The notes under the pieces are model-generated. The model made no database searches, was not told where the DNA came from, and saw nothing but the letters and a program-made list of their open reading frames with translations. Below, one piece after another: positions 45,792 through 53,229 of a stretch of DNA of 64,000 nt (position 1 is the first letter of the stretch; each line of letters starts with the position of its first letter). The stretch lies in the NCBI RefSeq assembly GCF_023556315.2, contig NZ_CP116221.1:248001-312000 (forward strand), given 5' to 3'. Origin of the DNA: Psychroserpens ponticola. Lineage in GTDB: Bacteria; Bacteroidota; Bacteroidia; Flavobacteriales; Flavobacteriaceae. The translations under genes and the position numbers were made by a program.

Positions 45792-46472
45792 TTAGCAGAT
45801 TAATTTATACCCAAAACCTCTAACGTTTAAAATTTGAATAGAATTGTCTCTGTTTAGTTTTTTGCGAAGCTTAGTAATAAAAACATCCATGCTTCTTGCA
45901 TTAAAAAAATCGTCATTTCCCCAAAGTTTATTTAAAATTAATGAACGATCTAGAACTTTGTTTTTGTTCTTTACTAAATGAAATAGTAAATGGGCTTCAC
46001 GATGAGTGAGTTGAACAAATTCATCTCCATTATGTTGTAGTGTTTGCTTTGGGAAATCAAAAGTATAATCACCTATTTGAAGTATTTCAGAGGTTTTTTG
46101 AACTTTAGTTCTATTGAGTAAATTATTAATTCTAACTATCAATTCTTCCATGCTGAAAGGTTTTTTTAGGTAATCATTGCCTCCAATAGTAAATCCTTCA
46201 ACTACATCTTGCGTTTGTGATTTTGCTGTTAAAAAGATAATAGGAATGCTGTCATCAATAGCTCTTATGTCTTTCGCTAAAGTGAAGCCATCTTTTTTTG
46301 GCATCATAACGTCTAAAACTAGAAGTTCAGGGTTTTTAGTTTGGTATGTGTCTAAGGCTTTTTCTCCGTCGTCACATAGTAATACATTAAAGTCTCTTGT
46401 TTCTAAGCTTTCTTTTATAATCTGCCCTAAAGCAGGTTCGTCTTCAGCAAGTAAAATGGTTGTTTTATGCAT
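45792..46472 (-). CDS. OmpR-type response regulator (RprY-like)
   Basis: A 226-residue DNA-binding regulator. The receiver domain has the acidic pocket DE (residues 11-12), phosphoacceptor Asp54 in LLVLDVMMPKKDGF, and LTAKSQ with the conserved Lys. Residues about 130-226 form a winged-helix domain: LTHREAHLLFHLVKNKNKVLDRSLILNKLWG and FITKLRKKLNRD. The start overlaps the kinase stop by eight bases, so the pair is translationally coupled. The likely target is the triple GTTAAC site at 48121-48146. The name is by resemblance to Bacteroides RprY. Confidence 0.94.
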   Translation of the reverse strand: MHKTTILLAEDEPALGQIIKESLETRDFNVLLCDDGEKALDTYQTKNPELLVLDVMMPKKDGFTLAKDIRAIDDSIPIIFLTAKSQTQDVVEGFTIGGNDYLKKPFSMEELIVRINNLLNRTKVQKTSEILQIGDYTFDFPKQTLQHNGDEFVQLTHREAHLLFHLVKNKNKVLDRSLILNKLWGNDDFFNARSMDVFITKLRKKLNRDNSIQILNVRGFGYKLIC

Positions 46473-48081
46473 AAGCTAAGACGATTTTAAATGTTGTTTT
46501 TTGTTTTTCTAGTTGAATTTGAATCGTTCCGTTGTGCTTTTCAATAATCTTTTTAGTGTAGTATAGTCCTATTCCAAACCCTTTAATATCATGTGTATTG
46601 CCTTTAGGAACGCGGTAAAATTTCTCGAAAACACGATCTTTATTGGCTTTTGTAAGTGAGGTTCCATTGTCTGAAACTGAAATTTCTATTTGTGATGATT
46701 TGCTTTTTAGTTGAATTTCAATTTGATTTCCTCCATACTTGAAAGCATTATCAATAATATTATTAATTGCATTTTCAAAATGAAAAATATCGACATTTAT
46801 AAAGACATTGTCATCGATGTCGCAATGGACCAATTTGTCATTTTGTATTTTATGTTTTTCAATAACTGCTGTTATGACTTCTGAAATATTATAACGCTCT
46901 GTATTGAGTTCTAAATTTTCACTGTCAAGCGTTGCGGTTTCTAATAGTTTTTCGACCATAGTATTTAGTTTAGATAATTGTGTGCTTGACATATCTAAAT
47001 AGTTTTTTGTTTTTTCTTTATCGTCAATGACGTTAAAGCTCTGAATGCTTTCTAGTGCGACACCAATGGTTGCGATAGGTGTTTTAAACTCATGAGTGAT
47101 ATTGCTGATTAAATCGTTTTTAACTTCAGATAATTGCTTTTGGTGTTTTATGATTCTCAACAAATAGAATAAGCAACTAATAACAGCAAGGATAAGTAAT
47201 GTAGACAGCGAGATGCCTAAAAAGCTACGTTTGAAAGTTTCACTTACTGGGTTCTTAAAGTTTAGTGTGATAATTTCATCTGCTTTTAAATAGGTTGTTT
47301 TTGCGTTCTTTTTTATAGGGAATTCAGCTTGATTATTAATTTTAGACGAATGTAAAGTGTCTTTATTTTTTAAATGAGTAACATAAAAATCATTAGAAAC
47401 ACCTTTGTTTTTCAATTCAGAAATAAGTAAAGAATCTAACTTTTTATAATCTAAAGAGTCTTGTTGCATAGCAATATAAATAGTAGAAAGCCCTTTAATT
47501 AGTTTTAAACTATCTCTCGATTTTTTGCCCCAAAACACCTTGTTAGCTGTGATTGATTTTGCGTTTTTGTCAAAGGTTAATCCTCTTTTATTGTCTTTAG
47601 AAAGCTGTGTGAATTTTTCAGTTTTTAAGGTGTCTCCAGAAGCTGTTTCTTTATTAAAATAGTCTTCGTAAGAATCAAACATGTCATTAATATACATGTT
47701 GTCTATACTGTCTAAATCGGATTGGTCGTTTCCAGAAATATCAATAGTTGTAATCTTAAATATAGAATCGTGACCTGTGTTTTGTTCTTTTATGGTTTTG
47801 ATTTTAGTTTTAAATGGTTTTAATATGGTGTCCCAAGCAACATGACTAAAATCGGTTTTGTCATTGGTGTCAGTCGAATTTATAACGGTTAGAAAATTCT
47901 TTTTAGAAAGGGTTGTGTAATACGTTTCTACGGCATTGTCTAAACTCCATTGTATGTCATTATAAACCTGTTGTTTATTGGTTTGATAATTTTTGTAATT
48001 CCAAAATACCTGAATAGCAATCGTGCTAATAATCACAAAAACAATAAGATATAAGATGTATTGATAGCGTTTATCATTCAT
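46465..48081 (-). CDS. Sensor histidine kinase (RprX-like)
   Basis: A 538-residue inner-membrane kinase. Membrane helices are at about residues 9-28 and 287-310, enclosing a 260-residue periplasmic sensor with no family I can name. The H-box holds His330 (SNITHEFKTPIATIG). N-box, G1 and G2 follow: NAINNIIDNAFKYGG, VSDNGTSL and KGFGIGLYYTKKI. It precedes the regulator gene. A TACATTTG -7 element ends four bases before the ATG, so the mRNA may be leaderless. The gene reads away from the secreted protein/GLPGLI unit, whose products share the periplasm with the sensor. Confidence 0.94.
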   Translation of the reverse strand: MNDKRYQYILYLIVFVIISTIAIQVFWNYKNYQTNKQQVYNDIQWSLDNAVETYYTTLSKKNFLTVINSTDTNDKTDFSHVAWDTILKPFKTKIKTIKEQNTGHDSIFKITTIDISGNDQSDLDSIDNMYINDMFDSYEDYFNKETASGDTLKTEKFTQLSKDNKRGLTFDKNAKSITANKVFWGKKSRDSLKLIKGLSTIYIAMQQDSLDYKKLDSLLISELKNKGVSNDFYVTHLKNKDTLHSSKINNQAEFPIKKNAKTTYLKADEIITLNFKNPVSETFKRSFLGISLSTLLILAVISCLFYLLRIIKHQKQLSEVKNDLISNITHEFKTPIATIGVALESIQSFNVIDDKEKTKNYLDMSSTQLSKLNTMVEKLLETATLDSENLELNTERYNISEVITAVIEKHKIQNDKLVHCDIDDNVFINVDIFHFENAINNIIDNAFKYGGNQIEIQLKSKSSQIEISVSDNGTSLTKANKDRVFEKFYRVPKGNTHDIKGFGIGLYYTKKIIEKHNGTIQIQLEKQKTTFKIVLAYA

Positions 48082-48085
48082 AATT

Positions 48086-48093
48086 CAAATGTA
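48086..48093 (-). promoter_or_regulatory. -7 element for the sensor kinase gene
   Basis: TACATTTG on the minus strand, exact TAnnTTTG match, four bases before the ATG at 48081. The triple GTTAAC box lies 28-60 bases upstream. Confidence 0.5.
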
Positions 48094-48120: not shown

Positions 48121-48146
48121 GTTAACACACGTTAACATTGGTTAAC
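48121..48146. promoter_or_regulatory. Triple GTTAAC operator with 10-bp period
   Basis: GTTAAC at 48121-48126, 48131-48136 and 48141-48146, each separated by four bases (ACAC, ATTG). One site per helical turn is the arrangement used by OmpR-family regulators. The boxes lie between a -7 element for the kinase gene (48086-48093, minus) and one for the secreted-protein gene (48169-48176, plus), so they can act on both. GTTAAC is itself symmetric, so orientation is not fixed. Confidence 0.65.
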
Positions 48147-48168
48147 TAAAAGCCATGAAAGGCACAAT

Positions 48169-48176
48169 TATATTTG
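48169..48176 (+). promoter_or_regulatory. -7 element for the small secreted protein/GLPGLI/barrel unit
   Basis: TATATTTG, exact TAnnTTTG match, with no -33 TTTG. The lack of a -33 box and the position of the GTTAAC boxes 23-48 bases upstream suggest an activator-dependent promoter. Confidence 0.5.
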
Positions 48177-48204: not shown

Positions 48205-48573
48205 ATGAAATCAGTAATTACAATTCTATTCCTATTATTAGCAACAATTAGTTTTGCTCAGCCACAAAATTTTAATGATTCGGAACCATTACAAATAACT
48301 AAGTTTTCCGATTTTAAAATTTCAATGACAGTAGATTCTGCGTCAGATATAGAATCTACATTTAAATTGAAAGATATCAAAGATGTTTTAAATGATGTAA
48401 GTGAAGATGAAAACATATCGTTTGAAATTATTTGCAATGGAAATCAAATATCTAAAGGAGAAAAAAGTAAAGTATCATACAAGGTGAAAGGTAATACTAA
48501 TAATCTAAAGCCTTTTTTGAAAACGATAAAAAAGATTAGAAAAGGAGCAATTAACTATTATAAAAACAAATAA
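48205..48573 (+). CDS. Small secreted protein, unknown function
   Basis: A 122-residue exported protein: signal peptide MKSVITILFLLLATISFAQ, then about 100 residues rich in charged residues (FKISMTVDSASDIESTFKLKDIKDVLNDVSEDENISFEIICNGN). No domain is recognised. It has one Cys. It is first in a unit with the GLPGLI gene two bases downstream, divergent from the two-component system. The position suggests a periplasmic role linked to the sensor, for example as an accessory or feedback factor; this is inference. Confidence 0.75.
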   Translation: MKSVITILFLLLATISFAQPQNFNDSEPLQITKFSDFKISMTVDSASDIESTFKLKDIKDVLNDVSEDENISFEIICNGNQISKGEKSKVSYKVKGNTNNLKPFLKTIKKIRKGAINYYKNK

Positions 48574-48575
48574 TA

Positions 48576-49391
48576 ATGAAAGTATACATGAGTTTTTTAG
48601 TCGCTGCAATACTTTTAGTAGTAACAAAAATGGATGCGCAAGAATTTAAAGGAAAGGCCATATATAAATCACATCGTAAAGTGGATTTAAAAATGGATGA
48701 CAATGACAAGAATTCTGAAATGAAAAAGCAGATTCAAGAACAATTGAGAAAACAATTTCAGCAGGAATACACACTAACTTTTGATCAATATCAATCTCTT
48801 TATAAAAAGAATGAAAAATTAGCAGCTCCAGCACCAGCTTCTAATGGAATTCAAATTACGATTTCTGAAGGATCTGATCTTTTGTATAAAAACATCAAAG
48901 AGAAGCGTTTTGTAAATCAAACCGAAATTTACGGCAAGCAATTCCTTATTAAAGATAGTTTAATAACTAAGAGTTGGACATTGGTAAATGAGACCAAAAA
49001 CATAGGAATTTACACATGCTTTAAGGCGACTTTTTCAGAAACTTATGAGACGCAAACAATTACAGAAGAAGGTAAGTTAGATAAAGTTGCTAAAGATCGA
49101 CTTACTACAGCTTGGTATACGCCACAAATTCCGATTAATAATGGTCCAGAAGATTTTAATGGTTTGCCTGGTTTAATTCTTGAAATTAATGATGGAGAAT
49201 TAACTTTAGTTTGTACTAGAGTCGTGATGAATCCAGATGAATCAATAGACATAAAAGAGCCAAAAAAAGGAAAAGAAGTCACTCAGGCTAAATTTGACGA
49301 AATAATGGATAAGAAAACGGAAGAGCAAATGGAAAACATGAGATCAAGAAGAGGTGATGGTGAAAAAGTGATGATTAAAATTGGTGGATAA
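48576..49391 (+). CDS. GLPGLI family protein 1
   Basis: A 271-residue exported protein (signal peptide to about residue 22, MDAQEFKGKAIYKS). The family motif is seen as FNGLPGLILEINDGELTLVCTRVVM near residues 205-230, preceded by TAWYTPQIPINNGPE. GLPGLI proteins are Bacteroidota-specific and of unknown function, often beside outer-membrane beta-barrel proteins. It lies two bases after the small secreted-protein gene and 115 bases before its paralogue. Both GLPGLI proteins share the order FKGKAIYKS / FQGQAIYQT, FYGKQFLIKDSL / FFGKQFLVKDSL and YTCFKAT. Confidence 0.9.
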   Translation: MKVYMSFLVAAILLVVTKMDAQEFKGKAIYKSHRKVDLKMDDNDKNSEMKKQIQEQLRKQFQQEYTLTFDQYQSLYKKNEKLAAPAPASNGIQITISEGSDLLYKNIKEKRFVNQTEIYGKQFLIKDSLITKSWTLVNETKNIGIYTCFKATFSETYETQTITEEGKLDKVAKDRLTTAWYTPQIPINNGPEDFNGLPGLILEINDGELTLVCTRVVMNPDESIDIKEPKKGKEVTQAKFDEIMDKKTEEQMENMRSRRGDGEKVMIKIGG

Positions 49392-49506
49392 TTAAGTTTA
49401 ATTATTTAATAAAATTTTAACTTTTTCGAATTTAACTATTTAATGTTTTTAGAGTCTTACATATTTTAATGGGTTAATTTTACCCACAAATAAAATATAG
49501 GATATC

Positions 49507-50418
49507 ATGACTCAATTTATCACAAGAATTTGTACTGTTTTCTTTGTATTAGTAACAACAGTAATTTCAGCGCAACAAGACTTTCAAGGACAAGCAATTT
49601 ATCAAACCAAAACAACTGTAGATATGAGTAATTTTGGTGGAGGACAAATGAGTGATCAGCAAAAAAAGCAAATTGCTGAACGTATGAAAAGTATGTTAGA
49701 AAAAACATATATCCTTAATTTTAATCGAAGTGAATCTACATACAAGGAAGAAGAAAAATTGGATGCTCCTGGTGTTGGAGGTGGTCGTATGAGGGGCTTT
49801 ATGAGTAGTTTTACTGGTGGTCCTCAATATAAAGACATTAAAGAAAATGTGATTCTGCAAGAACAAGAGTTTTTTGGTAAACAATTTTTGGTTAAAGATT
49901 CATTGCCAAAATTAGAATGGAAACTAGGTAGTGAAACAAAGAAGATTGGACAATATACTTGTTTTAAAGCAACGGCTACAAAGTCTGTTGATGAAATGGA
50001 TTTTATGAGCATGCGTAGACGAGGAAGAAATAATGATGATAAGAAAGAAGACGAAAAGAAAGAAGGTGAGGAAATTACAGATACTACAAAAACAGAATTA
50101 GATAATCCATTAGATGAACTTGAGACTCCAAAATTTGTTGTAGTTACGGCTTGGTACACACCTCAAATTCCTGTTAGTACTGGACCTGGTGAATATCATG
50201 GGCTTCCAGGATTAATTCTAGAAGTTCAAGCAGATAAAACCGTTATGCTCTGTACTAAAATAGTAATGAACCCTCAAGAAAAAGAGGGAATTAATAAGCC
50301 TGAGACTGGAGAAGTCGTTACTCGTGAAGCGTACAATACCATAATGAAAGAGAAAATTGAAGAGATGAGAGAAATGTATGGTGGTCGTGGTGGACGAGGA
50401 GGTGGACGAAGAAATTAA
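49507..50418 (+). CDS. GLPGLI family protein 2, with Gly/Arg-rich tail
   Basis: A 303-residue exported paralogue of the preceding gene. Signal peptide to about residue 22, N-terminal FQGQAIYQTKTTVD, motif YHGLPGLILEVQADKTVMLCTKIVM near residues 235-260. It differs from protein 1 by an acidic/basic insert of about 40 residues (RRRGRNNDDKKEDEKKEGEE) and by a C-terminus of Gly and Arg (GGRGGRGGGRRN). The role is unknown. The beta-barrel gene follows after 60 bases. Confidence 0.9.
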   Translation: MTQFITRICTVFFVLVTTVISAQQDFQGQAIYQTKTTVDMSNFGGGQMSDQQKKQIAERMKSMLEKTYILNFNRSESTYKEEEKLDAPGVGGGRMRGFMSSFTGGPQYKDIKENVILQEQEFFGKQFLVKDSLPKLEWKLGSETKKIGQYTCFKATATKSVDEMDFMSMRRRGRNNDDKKEDEKKEGEEITDTTKTELDNPLDELETPKFVVVTAWYTPQIPVSTGPGEYHGLPGLILEVQADKTVMLCTKIVMNPQEKEGINKPETGEVVTREAYNTIMKEKIEEMREMYGGRGGRGGGRRN

Positions 50419-50478
50419 TAACTAAACCAAAGTTTCAATTTTCCGAAGTGAAATAATCAAAGAAACAAAATTCAATAC

Positions 50479-53229
50479 ATGAGAAATTTAATTTTACTCG
50501 CGTTACTGCTAGTGACAAGCATAACTAGTGCGCAAATTACAGTGCAAGGTGTCGTAAAAGACAGTTTGGGAGCTCCTCTTGAGTTGGCTAATATTATAGC
50601 TATTAATAAAGCAACAAAGGCGATGGGTTCCTACGCGATATCAAATGATAAAGGCAGATTTAAGCTTGATTTAGATATGAATACAACCTATACAATTCAA
50701 GTGAGCTATATTGGAATGAAATCGCTTTCCGAAGAAATAGCAACCAAAGAAGATGATATTACAAAAAACTATACTCTTGAATACGATAATGCTCTTGATG
50801 CTGTTGAATTAACTTACGAAATGCCAGTAACCATTAAAGGTGATACTTTAGTGTATAACGCAGATTCGTTTAAAGATGGTTCTGAACGAAAACTAGAAGA
50901 CGTTCTCAAGAAATTACCAGGTGTCGAAATTAATGACGATGGGCAAATTGAAGTCGAAGGTAAAGTCGTCAATAAATTAATGGTTAATGGAAAAGATTTT
51001 TTTGATGGTGATTCGAAATTGGCAACAAAAAATATTCCGTCAAATGCAGTTGATAAGATACAAGTGTTGCGTAATTACTCTGAAGTTGGGCAATTAAGAG
51101 GTGTGCAAAATAATCAAGATAATGTTGCCATAAATATAAAACTTAAAGAAGGAAAAGAAAATTTCTGGTTTGGAGATGTAACAGCTGGAGTAGGAGTTGC
51201 TACAGATGATGAATTGTATTTGGTTCAGCCTAAACTGTTTTACTATAGTCCCAAATACAGTGTCAATGTCATTGGTGATTTAAATAATATTGGAGAAGTG
51301 GCTTTAACGAATCGCGATATTAGAAATTTTGGAGGCGGATTTAGGCGTCCTAGTCAGAGTAGTGGAACAAGTATTAATTTAGGCGATAATGGACTTGGAG
51401 GATTAACAAGTATTGCTAATGCTCAAGAAATTGAATCAAAACTCGGAGCTGCTAACTTTAGTTACTCACCAAATAAGGCTTTAGACCTAAGCGGATTTTT
51501 TATCTACAATAGCAGTCGTTTACGAACTCGTGAAGAAAGTTTTGTAAGATATATCGATTCTGATTTAGGAATTCCTAATGAAGAAACCGTTCAAACAGGA
51601 AGAGAAGCATCTAATCAAGGCATCGCAAAATTAAGTGCGTCGTATAAACCGAATGCTAATAATCAATTAGATTATGATCTTTTAGGACGCATGTCTAGTG
51701 ATTCAGAAATGCAAAGCGAAGTGTCGTCTGTTGTTGGTAGTACAGATCAAATAGACGAAGTAAATCCGTTTAGTATCAATCAAAACCTGAACTATTATTA
51801 CACGTTAAACGAGAAAAATATTTTTGCTCTAGAAGCACAGCACCTTATAAAAGACGAAGATCCTTTTTACAATGCAATGCTTGTCAATGATCCTACAAAT
51901 AACTTTGATGCTCCTCAAGATCAAGATGCATTTGATGGCACTGCTGATGCTTTAGGAATTGATAGAGATCAATTTGGGTATAACCTAAATCAAAACAGAC
52001 GTATCAAGTCCAATCAATTAGACGCTAAATTAGATTACTACTATATTTTAAATAATAAGAGTAATATTAACCTAACCTTAGGTACGATTTTAAGCAATCA
52101 AAAATTTAATTCTAATATTTTTCAGTTTTTAGATGATGGTTCATATCTAGATCCAGTAGCAACATTAGAAGATGGTGATGGTAATCTTTTACAAAATGAA
52201 AACGATACAGAGTATAATTTTAGTGATGTGTATTTAGGATTCAGATATCGTGTTAAAACAGGAAAATTCACCATAACTCCAGGCTTTTCTTTACACGCTT
52301 ATGGAAATAAAAACACACAGTTTGGCGTTGAGCATAAAGACAATTTCTTTAGGGTAATGCCAGAATTTGAAACACTTATTCAGTTTAAAAAGAGTGAAAG
52401 TTTAACCTTCAGTTATAACATGAGCAACTCTTTTACAGATGTAACGAATTTAGCTGAAGGCATAGTTTTAAATAGCTTTAGTAACATTAGTTATGGTAAT
52501 CCTGAATTGCAAAACTCATTATCACATAATTTGAGTTTGAGATATTTCAGTTTTAACCTTTTTAATTATACTAATGTGTTTGCTTTTGCAAATTATAGTA
52601 AGAATATAGATCAAATTAGAAGCGAAACAAATTTTGATAATGTGATTAGAACAAGTTCATATTTCAACTCTAACTTTGCCGATGAATCCGCAAGTGTGTT
52701 TGGTCGTGTTGAGCGAACTTTCAAAAAGATTAGAGCAAGATTGGGAGCGCGTTTTTCTTATGCGAAACAAAATCAAATTGTTCAAGGAGAGCAAACCGTT
52801 AACCAAAGTTTTACTCAAAGTTATTCGCCAGAGTTACGTACCAATTTTAGAGAAGCACCAAATGTGCGTTTAAAATATGATTATTCTATTAGTAAAAACG
52901 ACCAAGGCTCAACATCTACCAAGTTCATTACAAATTCTCCTTCAGTTGAGTTTGATGCTTACATCTGGAAATCAGTAACATTCAGAACAGACTATACCTA
53001 TACCAATCAGGATGATGGTGTAAGACCATCTCAGTCGTTCCAAACTTGGGATGCGAGTTTAGCATATAGAAAAGATAAAGATGCCAAATGGGAATATGAA
53101 GTCAAAGCGTCTAACTTGTTAGATATCGATTCTAAAGTCAATAACAGCTCAAGTAATATTTCAGTATTTAACTCAGAGACCTTTATACAGCCTAGGTTTG
53201 TAACGTTTAGAGTGGTTTATTCATTGTAG
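50479..53229 (+). CDS. Outer-membrane beta-barrel protein with carboxypeptidase-regulatory-like domain (TonB-receptor-like)
   Basis: A 916-residue outer-membrane protein. Signal peptide to about residue 19, a CarboxypepD-regulatory-like domain (ITVQGVVKDSLGAPLELANIIAIN, YAISNDKGRFKLDL, VSYIGMKSL), then a plug-like part (KGDTLVYNADSFKDGSERKLEDVLKKLPGVEINDDGQIEVEGKVVNKLMVNGKDFFDGD) and a barrel that ends with FVTFRVVYSL. It resembles the OMP_b-brl_3/TonB-dependent receptor-like proteins that accompany GLPGLI genes. No TonB box is obvious. It closes the unit 48205-53229 and is followed by a dispersed element and a terminator. Substrate unknown. Confidence 0.9.
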   Translation: MRNLILLALLLVTSITSAQITVQGVVKDSLGAPLELANIIAINKATKAMGSYAISNDKGRFKLDLDMNTTYTIQVSYIGMKSLSEEIATKEDDITKNYTLEYDNALDAVELTYEMPVTIKGDTLVYNADSFKDGSERKLEDVLKKLPGVEINDDGQIEVEGKVVNKLMVNGKDFFDGDSKLATKNIPSNAVDKIQVLRNYSEVGQLRGVQNNQDNVAINIKLKEGKENFWFGDVTAGVGVATDDELYLVQPKLFYYSPKYSVNVIGDLNNIGEVALTNRDIRNFGGGFRRPSQSSGTSINLGDNGLGGLTSIANAQEIESKLGAANFSYSPNKALDLSGFFIYNSSRLRTREESFVRYIDSDLGIPNEETVQTGREASNQGIAKLSASYKPNANNQLDYDLLGRMSSDSEMQSEVSSVVGSTDQIDEVNPFSINQNLNYYYTLNEKNIFALEAQHLIKDEDPFYNAMLVNDPTNNFDAPQDQDAFDGTADALGIDRDQFGYNLNQNRRIKSNQLDAKLDYYYILNNKSNINLTLGTILSNQKFNSNIFQFLDDGSYLDPVATLEDGDGNLLQNENDTEYNFSDVYLGFRYRVKTGKFTITPGFSLHAYGNKNTQFGVEHKDNFFRVMPEFETLIQFKKSESLTFSYNMSNSFTDVTNLAEGIVLNSFSNISYGNPELQNSLSHNLSLRYFSFNLFNYTNVFAFANYSKNIDQIRSETNFDNVIRTSSYFNSNFADESASVFGRVERTFKKIRARLGARFSYAKQNQIVQGEQTVNQSFTQSYSPELRTNFREAPNVRLKYDYSISKNDQGSTSTKFITNSPSVEFDAYIWKSVTFRTDYTYTNQDDGVRPSQSFQTWDASLAYRKDKDAKWEYEVKASNLLDIDSKVNNSSSNISVFNSETFIQPRFVTFRVVYSL

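Follow-up and report, generated by a model that had tools for sequence, protein, structure and literature searches.

Direct-repeat operators are known for response regulators of the OmpR/PhoB type. The pho box bound by PhoB is an operator that stands in for an upstream promoter element, the CpxR box belongs to the cpxP-cpxRA locus, where a small secreted protein is encoded divergently beside an autoregulated two-component system, and the repeats of the ArcA box carry the letters GTTAA. ArcA sites of Escherichia coli with three repeats exist, two of them footprinted at 33 and 37 bp, and the repeats lie 11 bp apart centre to centre, according to the accessible excerpt of PMC3798270. For PhoP of Riemerella anatipestifer, the excerpted account gives a DAP-seq motif with the core TTTAACA, 583 peaks and GLPGLI genes among the targets (PMC9603813), and the available part of another report states that deletion of PG0720 in Porphyromonas gingivalis alters two GLPGLI genes (PMC8757827). 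Term searches found no binding motif in two papers on RprY and no motif of the kind described below in one on Porphyromonas HaeRS. We know of no function for GLPGLI genes.

The window analysed here, a stretch of 64,000 nucleotides from Psychroserpens ponticola, contains three GTTAAC boxes at 48121, 48131 and 48141. The boxes have a period of 10 bp and sit in a 123-nt gap between the start of a sensor kinase gene (48081, minus strand) and that of a gene for a secreted protein (48205, plus strand). The initial annotation, made from the letters of the window, had pointed out this triple and had placed a sensor kinase on the minus side, its response regulator (RR) at 45792-46472 and a secreted-protein/GLPGLI/barrel unit on the plus side; the boxes are where it put them and lie far beyond chance, and the gene calls were borne out. 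The features of the locus are as follows.

45792..46472, minus strand: RR of the OmpR/PhoB family, which presumably binds the operator; among NCBIfam models RprY comes nearest, with a score under its cut-off.
46465..48081, minus strand: sensor histidine kinase (HisKA, HATPase_c by domain search); H330 is invariant in 66 aligned sequences.
48086..48093, minus strand: putative -7 element TACATTTG for the kinase and regulator genes; 27 nt separate it from box 3, and the kinase ATG follows after 4 nt.
48121..48146: putative operator of three half-sites spaced by 10 bp, reading GTTAACCAAT GTTAACGTGT GTTAAC on the kinase (minus) strand; taken from the window sequence and from conservation in relatives.
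48121..48126, minus strand: box 3, the kinase-proximal half-site, whose final base is C in 62% and G in 34% of relatives (logo).
48131..48136, minus strand: box 2, the middle and most invariant half-site; in the logo, each base of GTTAA reaches 99-100% and the final C 95%.
48141..48146, minus strand: box 1, the half-site nearest the operon, occupying the -33 position in its promoter; it stays with the operon in 5/5 separated loci.
48147..48168: 22-nt spacer from box 1 to the operon -7 element, conserved in length and for the most part not in sequence.
48169..48176, plus strand: putative -7 element TATATTTG that would serve the secreted-protein/GLPGLI/barrel operon; a -33 element was not seen.
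48205..48573, plus strand: secreted protein of 122 amino acids that matches no family, encoded by the first gene of the presumed target operon.
48576..49391, plus strand: GLPGLI family protein 1 (TIGR01200, PF09697).
49507..50418, plus strand: GLPGLI family protein 2 (TIGR01200, PF09697).
50479..53229, plus strand: outer-membrane beta-barrel protein with a carboxypeptidase-regulatory-like domain; PF14905 scores slightly under its cut-off.

The genome of 4.03 Mb has the exact triple at this one place, and a first-order Markov model expects 1.4e-6 such 10-bp-spaced triples per 64 kb. The single box GTTAAC is found 8 times in the window as compared to a mean of 17.9 in dinucleotide shuffles, and the paired form GTTAACN4GTTAAC occurs at three places genome-wide, two of which are at 48121-48146. 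When up to three mismatches were allowed across the whole genome, the triple gave three matches per strand, which fall in two regions, the site itself (0 mismatches) and G000:C1:2599840-2599875 (1 and 3 mismatches). A reversed control pattern gave five matches in the same genome at the same tolerance, indicating that loose triple matches are at chance level and that merely the two best stand out. The second cluster (L183:3840-3880; 1 mismatch) adjoins a tiny open reading frame of about 28 codons, as judged by eye. Near it lies CGTCTATAGAGTATAAACAATC, which is present in just 2/23 genomes of the genus; G201:C7 has three copies at intervals of about 580 bp and G201:C23 one copy with one mismatch.

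Absence from the orthologous loci of close relatives had been named in the initial annotation as counting against a regulatory site. Instead, the site stands at the same locus in 23/23 genomes of the genus. The composite pattern (three TTAAC half-sites, 22 nt, nAnnTTTG) was found without mismatch once per genome, each time with the kinase on one side and the secreted-protein or GLPGLI genes on the other. Five additional composite matches turned up over the 23 genomes, all with two mismatches, and the reversed control, at up to two mismatches, also gave five. In the source genome this is the sole place that matches the full composite promoter, and the RR looks local there. A large regulon of triple-box sites was rejected by the genome-wide triple and the genus-wide composite searches. 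The other GTTAACN4GTTAAC places in genus genomes that lie inside open reading frames (G202:C54, G217, G201:C62, G209:C41, G211 and the second place in G199) look like chance.

Beyond the genus, the best match within 500 nt upstream of the kinase had 0, 1, 2 or 3 mismatches in 27, 44, 15 and 5 of 94 family loci, with three worse, where the exact-match share is lowered because the loci L147 and L149 onward were taken where an RR locus lacked the exact triple. The same search in 74 named loci, drawn from the best 80 of 589 relatives, gave 0, 1 or 2 mismatches in 34, 31 and 5, with four worse. In sum, at most 3 of 18 positions mismatch in 91/94 family and 70/74 named loci, and the reversed control never had fewer than four. 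The search of related genomes proposed at the outset thus located the site at most orthologous loci in the family and beyond it: 12 of the 70 named fragments are Cytophagales-type or Pedobacter, outside the Flavobacteriaceae. Kinase start codons were set by script. Loci without a kinase match or upstream DNA were dropped (L145, L148, L177, L182, L201, L206, L232, L251, L256 and L257), G194, G112 and G170 were left out as the gene lies near a contig start, and G313 has no such stretch.

The two sets overlap in species, and removal of duplicates from the 161 fragments (91 family, 70 named) left 149 distinct sites. Their logo on the kinase strand reads GTTAACnAGT GTTAACGWGT GTTAAsC. In most of them GT stands before boxes 2 and 3, and boxes 1 and 3 vary in their last base. 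The half-site is accordingly polar, reading about (A/T)GTGTTAA on the strand of the kinase, and the site consists of direct repeats, not of three palindromes. The logo shows these half-sites one helical turn (10 bp) apart, in the form of OmpR/PhoB-type operators. At least four mismatches were counted, among the loci listed, in L166, L176, L226 and L246, in which the two units are separated, in L144, in which they are adjacent, and in L269 and L271. L144 counts against full generality, as it has two boxes although the units adjoin; by hand count, these lie 22 nt from the operon -7 element and 41 nt from the TTTG of the kinase, which looks like a loss of box 3. L269 and L271, both Bacteroidales records, have the kinase-side pair alone, with TTTG at 31 nt in L271 and absent in L269. 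A longer run of boxes lies upstream of the kinase in Pedobacter panaciterrae (L270), four in register and a further pair.

The Bacteroidota promoter consensus, TAnnTTTG with an upstream TTTG/TTG, is quoted in the accessible part of PMC2483708. Both sides of the locus match the -7 element; the -33 element is not seen on the operon side and gives no clear signal on the kinase side. The initial annotation had put the plus-side -7 element 22 bases from the boxes, where TATATTTG indeed lies, and had noted a plus promoter devoid of a -33 box, in keeping with the lack of TTG at that distance; its figure of 28 bases for the minus side needs correcting to 27 between TACATTTG and the boxes. Promoter spacing played no part in choosing or aligning sites. 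On the operon side, TTTG follows box 1 at exactly 26 nt in 145/149 distinct sites (the exceptions are L029, L134, L135 and L270), and nAnnTTTG begins 22 nt from box 1 in 133/149. TTG occurs in the operon-side -33 range in 8/149, which is to be read as absence and not as depletion, since box 1 fills half of that range and the 27% background given below is no fair yardstick for it. The kinase side is looser, with TTTG at a distance from box 3 of 30 nt in 19, 31 nt in 72 and 32 nt in 42 of the 149 sites, half a helical turn out of phase with the operon side, and TTG in its -33 range was found in 43/128 as compared to a background, taken from the operon side, of about 27% for a 10-mer. The kinase -7 element lies just 4 nt from the ATG (48081-48093), and the logo of relatives shows a similar layout; the mRNA of kinase and regulator may thus have hardly any leader.

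The distribution of the triple follows the regulator. Among 397 Flavobacteriaceae genomes, 124 carry an RR ortholog (E up to 1e-65) and 51 the exact triple; all 51 are RR-positive, whereas 0/273 RR-negative genomes have it. The triple lies 1.5-2.7 kb upstream of the RR gene in 50/51, the exception being G296, where it is on another contig. GLPGLI genes are present in 163 of 199 genomes of a family sample, including all 65 that are RR-positive, and among these GLPGLI-bearing genomes the exact triple occurs in 27/65 with RR and 0/98 without. The phyletic pattern of the triple therefore tracks RR, not the GLPGLI genes, and a GLPGLI-specific regulator unlinked to RR was rejected on the same 0/98. 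A looser triple (GTTAANNNNNGTTAACNNNNGTTAA) was found in 15/295 genomes of the class; among the matches listed, nine of the 15 lie within about 3 kb of an RR match (down to 48% identity) and six lie away from any. Two family genomes, G202 and G296, have an exact triple at a place other than the main locus, and these could possibly be extra regulon members. The one in G202 (L184:3875-3900) adjoins a lipoprotein that resembles, by eye, a retropepsin-type aspartyl protease, and the one in G296 (L148:1644-1669) lies between a gene for a secreted 264-aa protein and another gene.

Loci in which the two units have drifted apart and boxes accompany each of them offer ready-made evidence on how the operator is used. 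Kinase and GLPGLI genes are apart in L226, L246, L176, L166 and L017, which came from 11 loci chosen for poor scores or distant GLPGLI matches. All five separated GLPGLI operons keep the three boxes with a -7 element at exactly 22 nt, and in three of the five (L226, L246 and L176) the separated kinase keeps a pair that corresponds to boxes 2 and 3 and has TTTG 31-32 nt away. L166 and L017 have a kinase without any box, which indicates that autoregulation is not universal. Given that separated units can have boxes of their own, the putative operator is modular, and its arrangement in these loci points to separate use by both promoters. The same comparison supports boxes 2 and 3 as a site for autoregulation.

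The RR gene overlaps that of the kinase, and its product scores above cut-off for a receiver domain (PF00072, 101.6 bits) and a Trans_reg_C winged helix (PF00486, 70.5 bits). Among the best 80 of 589 named relatives, the phospho-acceptor motif D[VI][MN][ML]P is present in 79/80 and the nearly invariant recognition-helix motif RSMDVFI[TS]KLRKK in 73/80; the phospho-acceptor aspartate is D54 in the window protein, by counting. The best NCBIfam model is RprY (NF051850, 268.9 bits; next model 183.7), against which six relatives score 253-284.5 bits. Identity with RprY was rejected, the curated cut-off being 370 bits, and RR is RprY-like, not RprY. In the kinase structure model, mean pLDDT is 70.7, and residues 70-154, part of the sensor region, fall under 50. 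The GLPGLI proteins score 194.3 and 172.1 bits against TIGR01200 (cut-off 50), and the two genes found in the genome both lie within the operon at 48205-53229. A weak match of GLPGLI protein 2 (49507-50418) to the PNGase F-II N-terminal domain stays under the cut-off. Secreted proteins of about 120 amino acids, of the family of the 48205-48573 product, head the operon in many genera. For the 122-aa protein, we found no Pfam match at 0.001 and, by sequence or fold search, no PDB match at E 0.001 and nothing convincing; its fold is predicted with confidence as E-HH-EE-H (pLDDT 86.9). The Spy/CpxP fold is all-helical. A place among CpxP-like feedback proteins was not supported, given the lack of a Pfam match and the predicted fold.

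From these sequence comparisons we propose, with a probability of roughly 0.86, that the three boxes form the operator of the RR encoded at 45792-46472, through which it would switch on the secreted-protein/GLPGLI/barrel operon, while boxes 2 and 3 would control the kinase-regulator operon. Phosphorylated RR would bind head to tail on the (A/T)GTGTTAA repeats, with a protomer on each helical turn. At the operon promoter, it would occupy the -33 position, 22 nt from the -7 element, and recruit RNA polymerase, a role we infer from geometry and by analogy with PhoB and ArcA. The near-invariant 22-nt spacing and the lack of a -33 element on this side fit activation, and an active kinase would switch on the operon, if indeed the plus-strand genes are one transcript. 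For the kinase unit itself, control through boxes 2 and 3 would probably give positive feedback, although activation is less certain there, as the spacing is looser and half a turn off and the kinase has kept just boxes 2 and 3 in three separated loci. The first suggestion, an OmpR-type activator site for both units, thus stands insofar as the pattern follows RR and each separated unit can carry a copy, and is less secure for activation of the kinase unit.

The nearest competing explanation shares the activation of the GLPGLI operon and has RR repress its own kinase-regulator operon via boxes 2 and 3, in a negative loop. Seen from the kinase promoter, the repeats run in the reverse direction, and the distance from box 3 to the kinase -7 element is 27 nt as compared to 22 nt on the operon side, half a helical turn off; in Bacillus subtilis PhoP, TTAACA boxes differ in strand orientation between activated and repressed promoters. 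However, box 3 is upstream of the -33 region, where bound RR would be no obvious block to polymerase, and the kinase promoter lacks a clear -33 element to fire unaided, given its 43/128 TTG count, so that we consider repression rather unlikely. Binding of the boxes by some transcription factor other than the neighbouring RR appears far less probable still. Different OmpR-type regulators do recognise such repeats, as the excerpted accounts of Riemerella PhoP, with its TTTAACA core, and of ArcA, with its direct repeats, indicate. Yet no RR-negative genome of the family has the exact triple, the 98 with GLPGLI genes included, the triple is at the RR locus in all but one of its holders, and a global regulator would have many sites, whereas the perfect composite is found once per genus genome. 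That the repeats are chance or non-regulatory sequence we regard as negligible: the units are indeed short palindromes and the DNA is AT-rich, but a chance origin of the triple was rejected by the Markov expectation and by conservation, the 149 distinct sites having near-invariant boxes and fixed promoter spacing amid flanking bases that mostly vary.

Activation of the operon by RR, with boxes 2 and 3 controlling the kinase unit, may be part of a wider scheme that we offer as possible but tentative. It would be a modular bidirectional switch, conserved in Flavobacteriaceae and Cytophagales and present with two boxes in Bacteroidales, in which boxes 1 and 2 serve the operon, boxes 2 and 3 serve the kinase and box 2 is shared, so that two RR dimers might compete or cooperate. 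The circuit would be closed and private, with one RR and one composite promoter per genome, and the secreted products might report envelope state to the kinase. The locus ties a subset of GLPGLI genes to one dedicated two-component system, a regulator open to testing. Its promoter code is readable, three half-sites, 22 nt and a -7 element, and provides a pattern by which the target operon can be found in further genomes. The promoter would also serve as a clean reporter for finding the kinase signal and as a small, naturally occurring model for Bacteroidota promoters that depend on an activator in place of the -33 element.

No description of the triple-box site was found among the best-ranked matches in the open-licence literature, in agreement with the initial annotation, which knew of none; the site belongs to the known OmpR/PhoB-type direct-repeat operators and is itself without an earlier description found there. 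With the ArcA box, as described in the excerpt of PMC3798270, it shares direct repeats, sites with three repeats and the OmpR/PhoB family. The ArcA repeats are spaced by 11 bp as opposed to 10 bp at 48121-48146, and the triple does not fit an ArcA box in this respect. ArcA is also global, with many of its targets repressed, whereas RR is apparently local and sits at an activator-type position. The likeness to Riemerella anatipestifer PhoP extends to a Bacteroidota response regulator, a TTAACA-like core, autoregulation and GLPGLI targets, and the difference lies in its 583 peaks and in the triple-box/22-nt architecture, which was not found in the accessible portion of PMC9603813. RprX/RprY of Bacteroides and Porphyromonas is close in that RprY is the best NCBIfam match of RR, and differs in that this match is below cut-off. 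As compared to PhoB and CpxR, the locus has another half-site and other envelope genes, and its operator is set at a Bacteroidota -7/-33 promoter.
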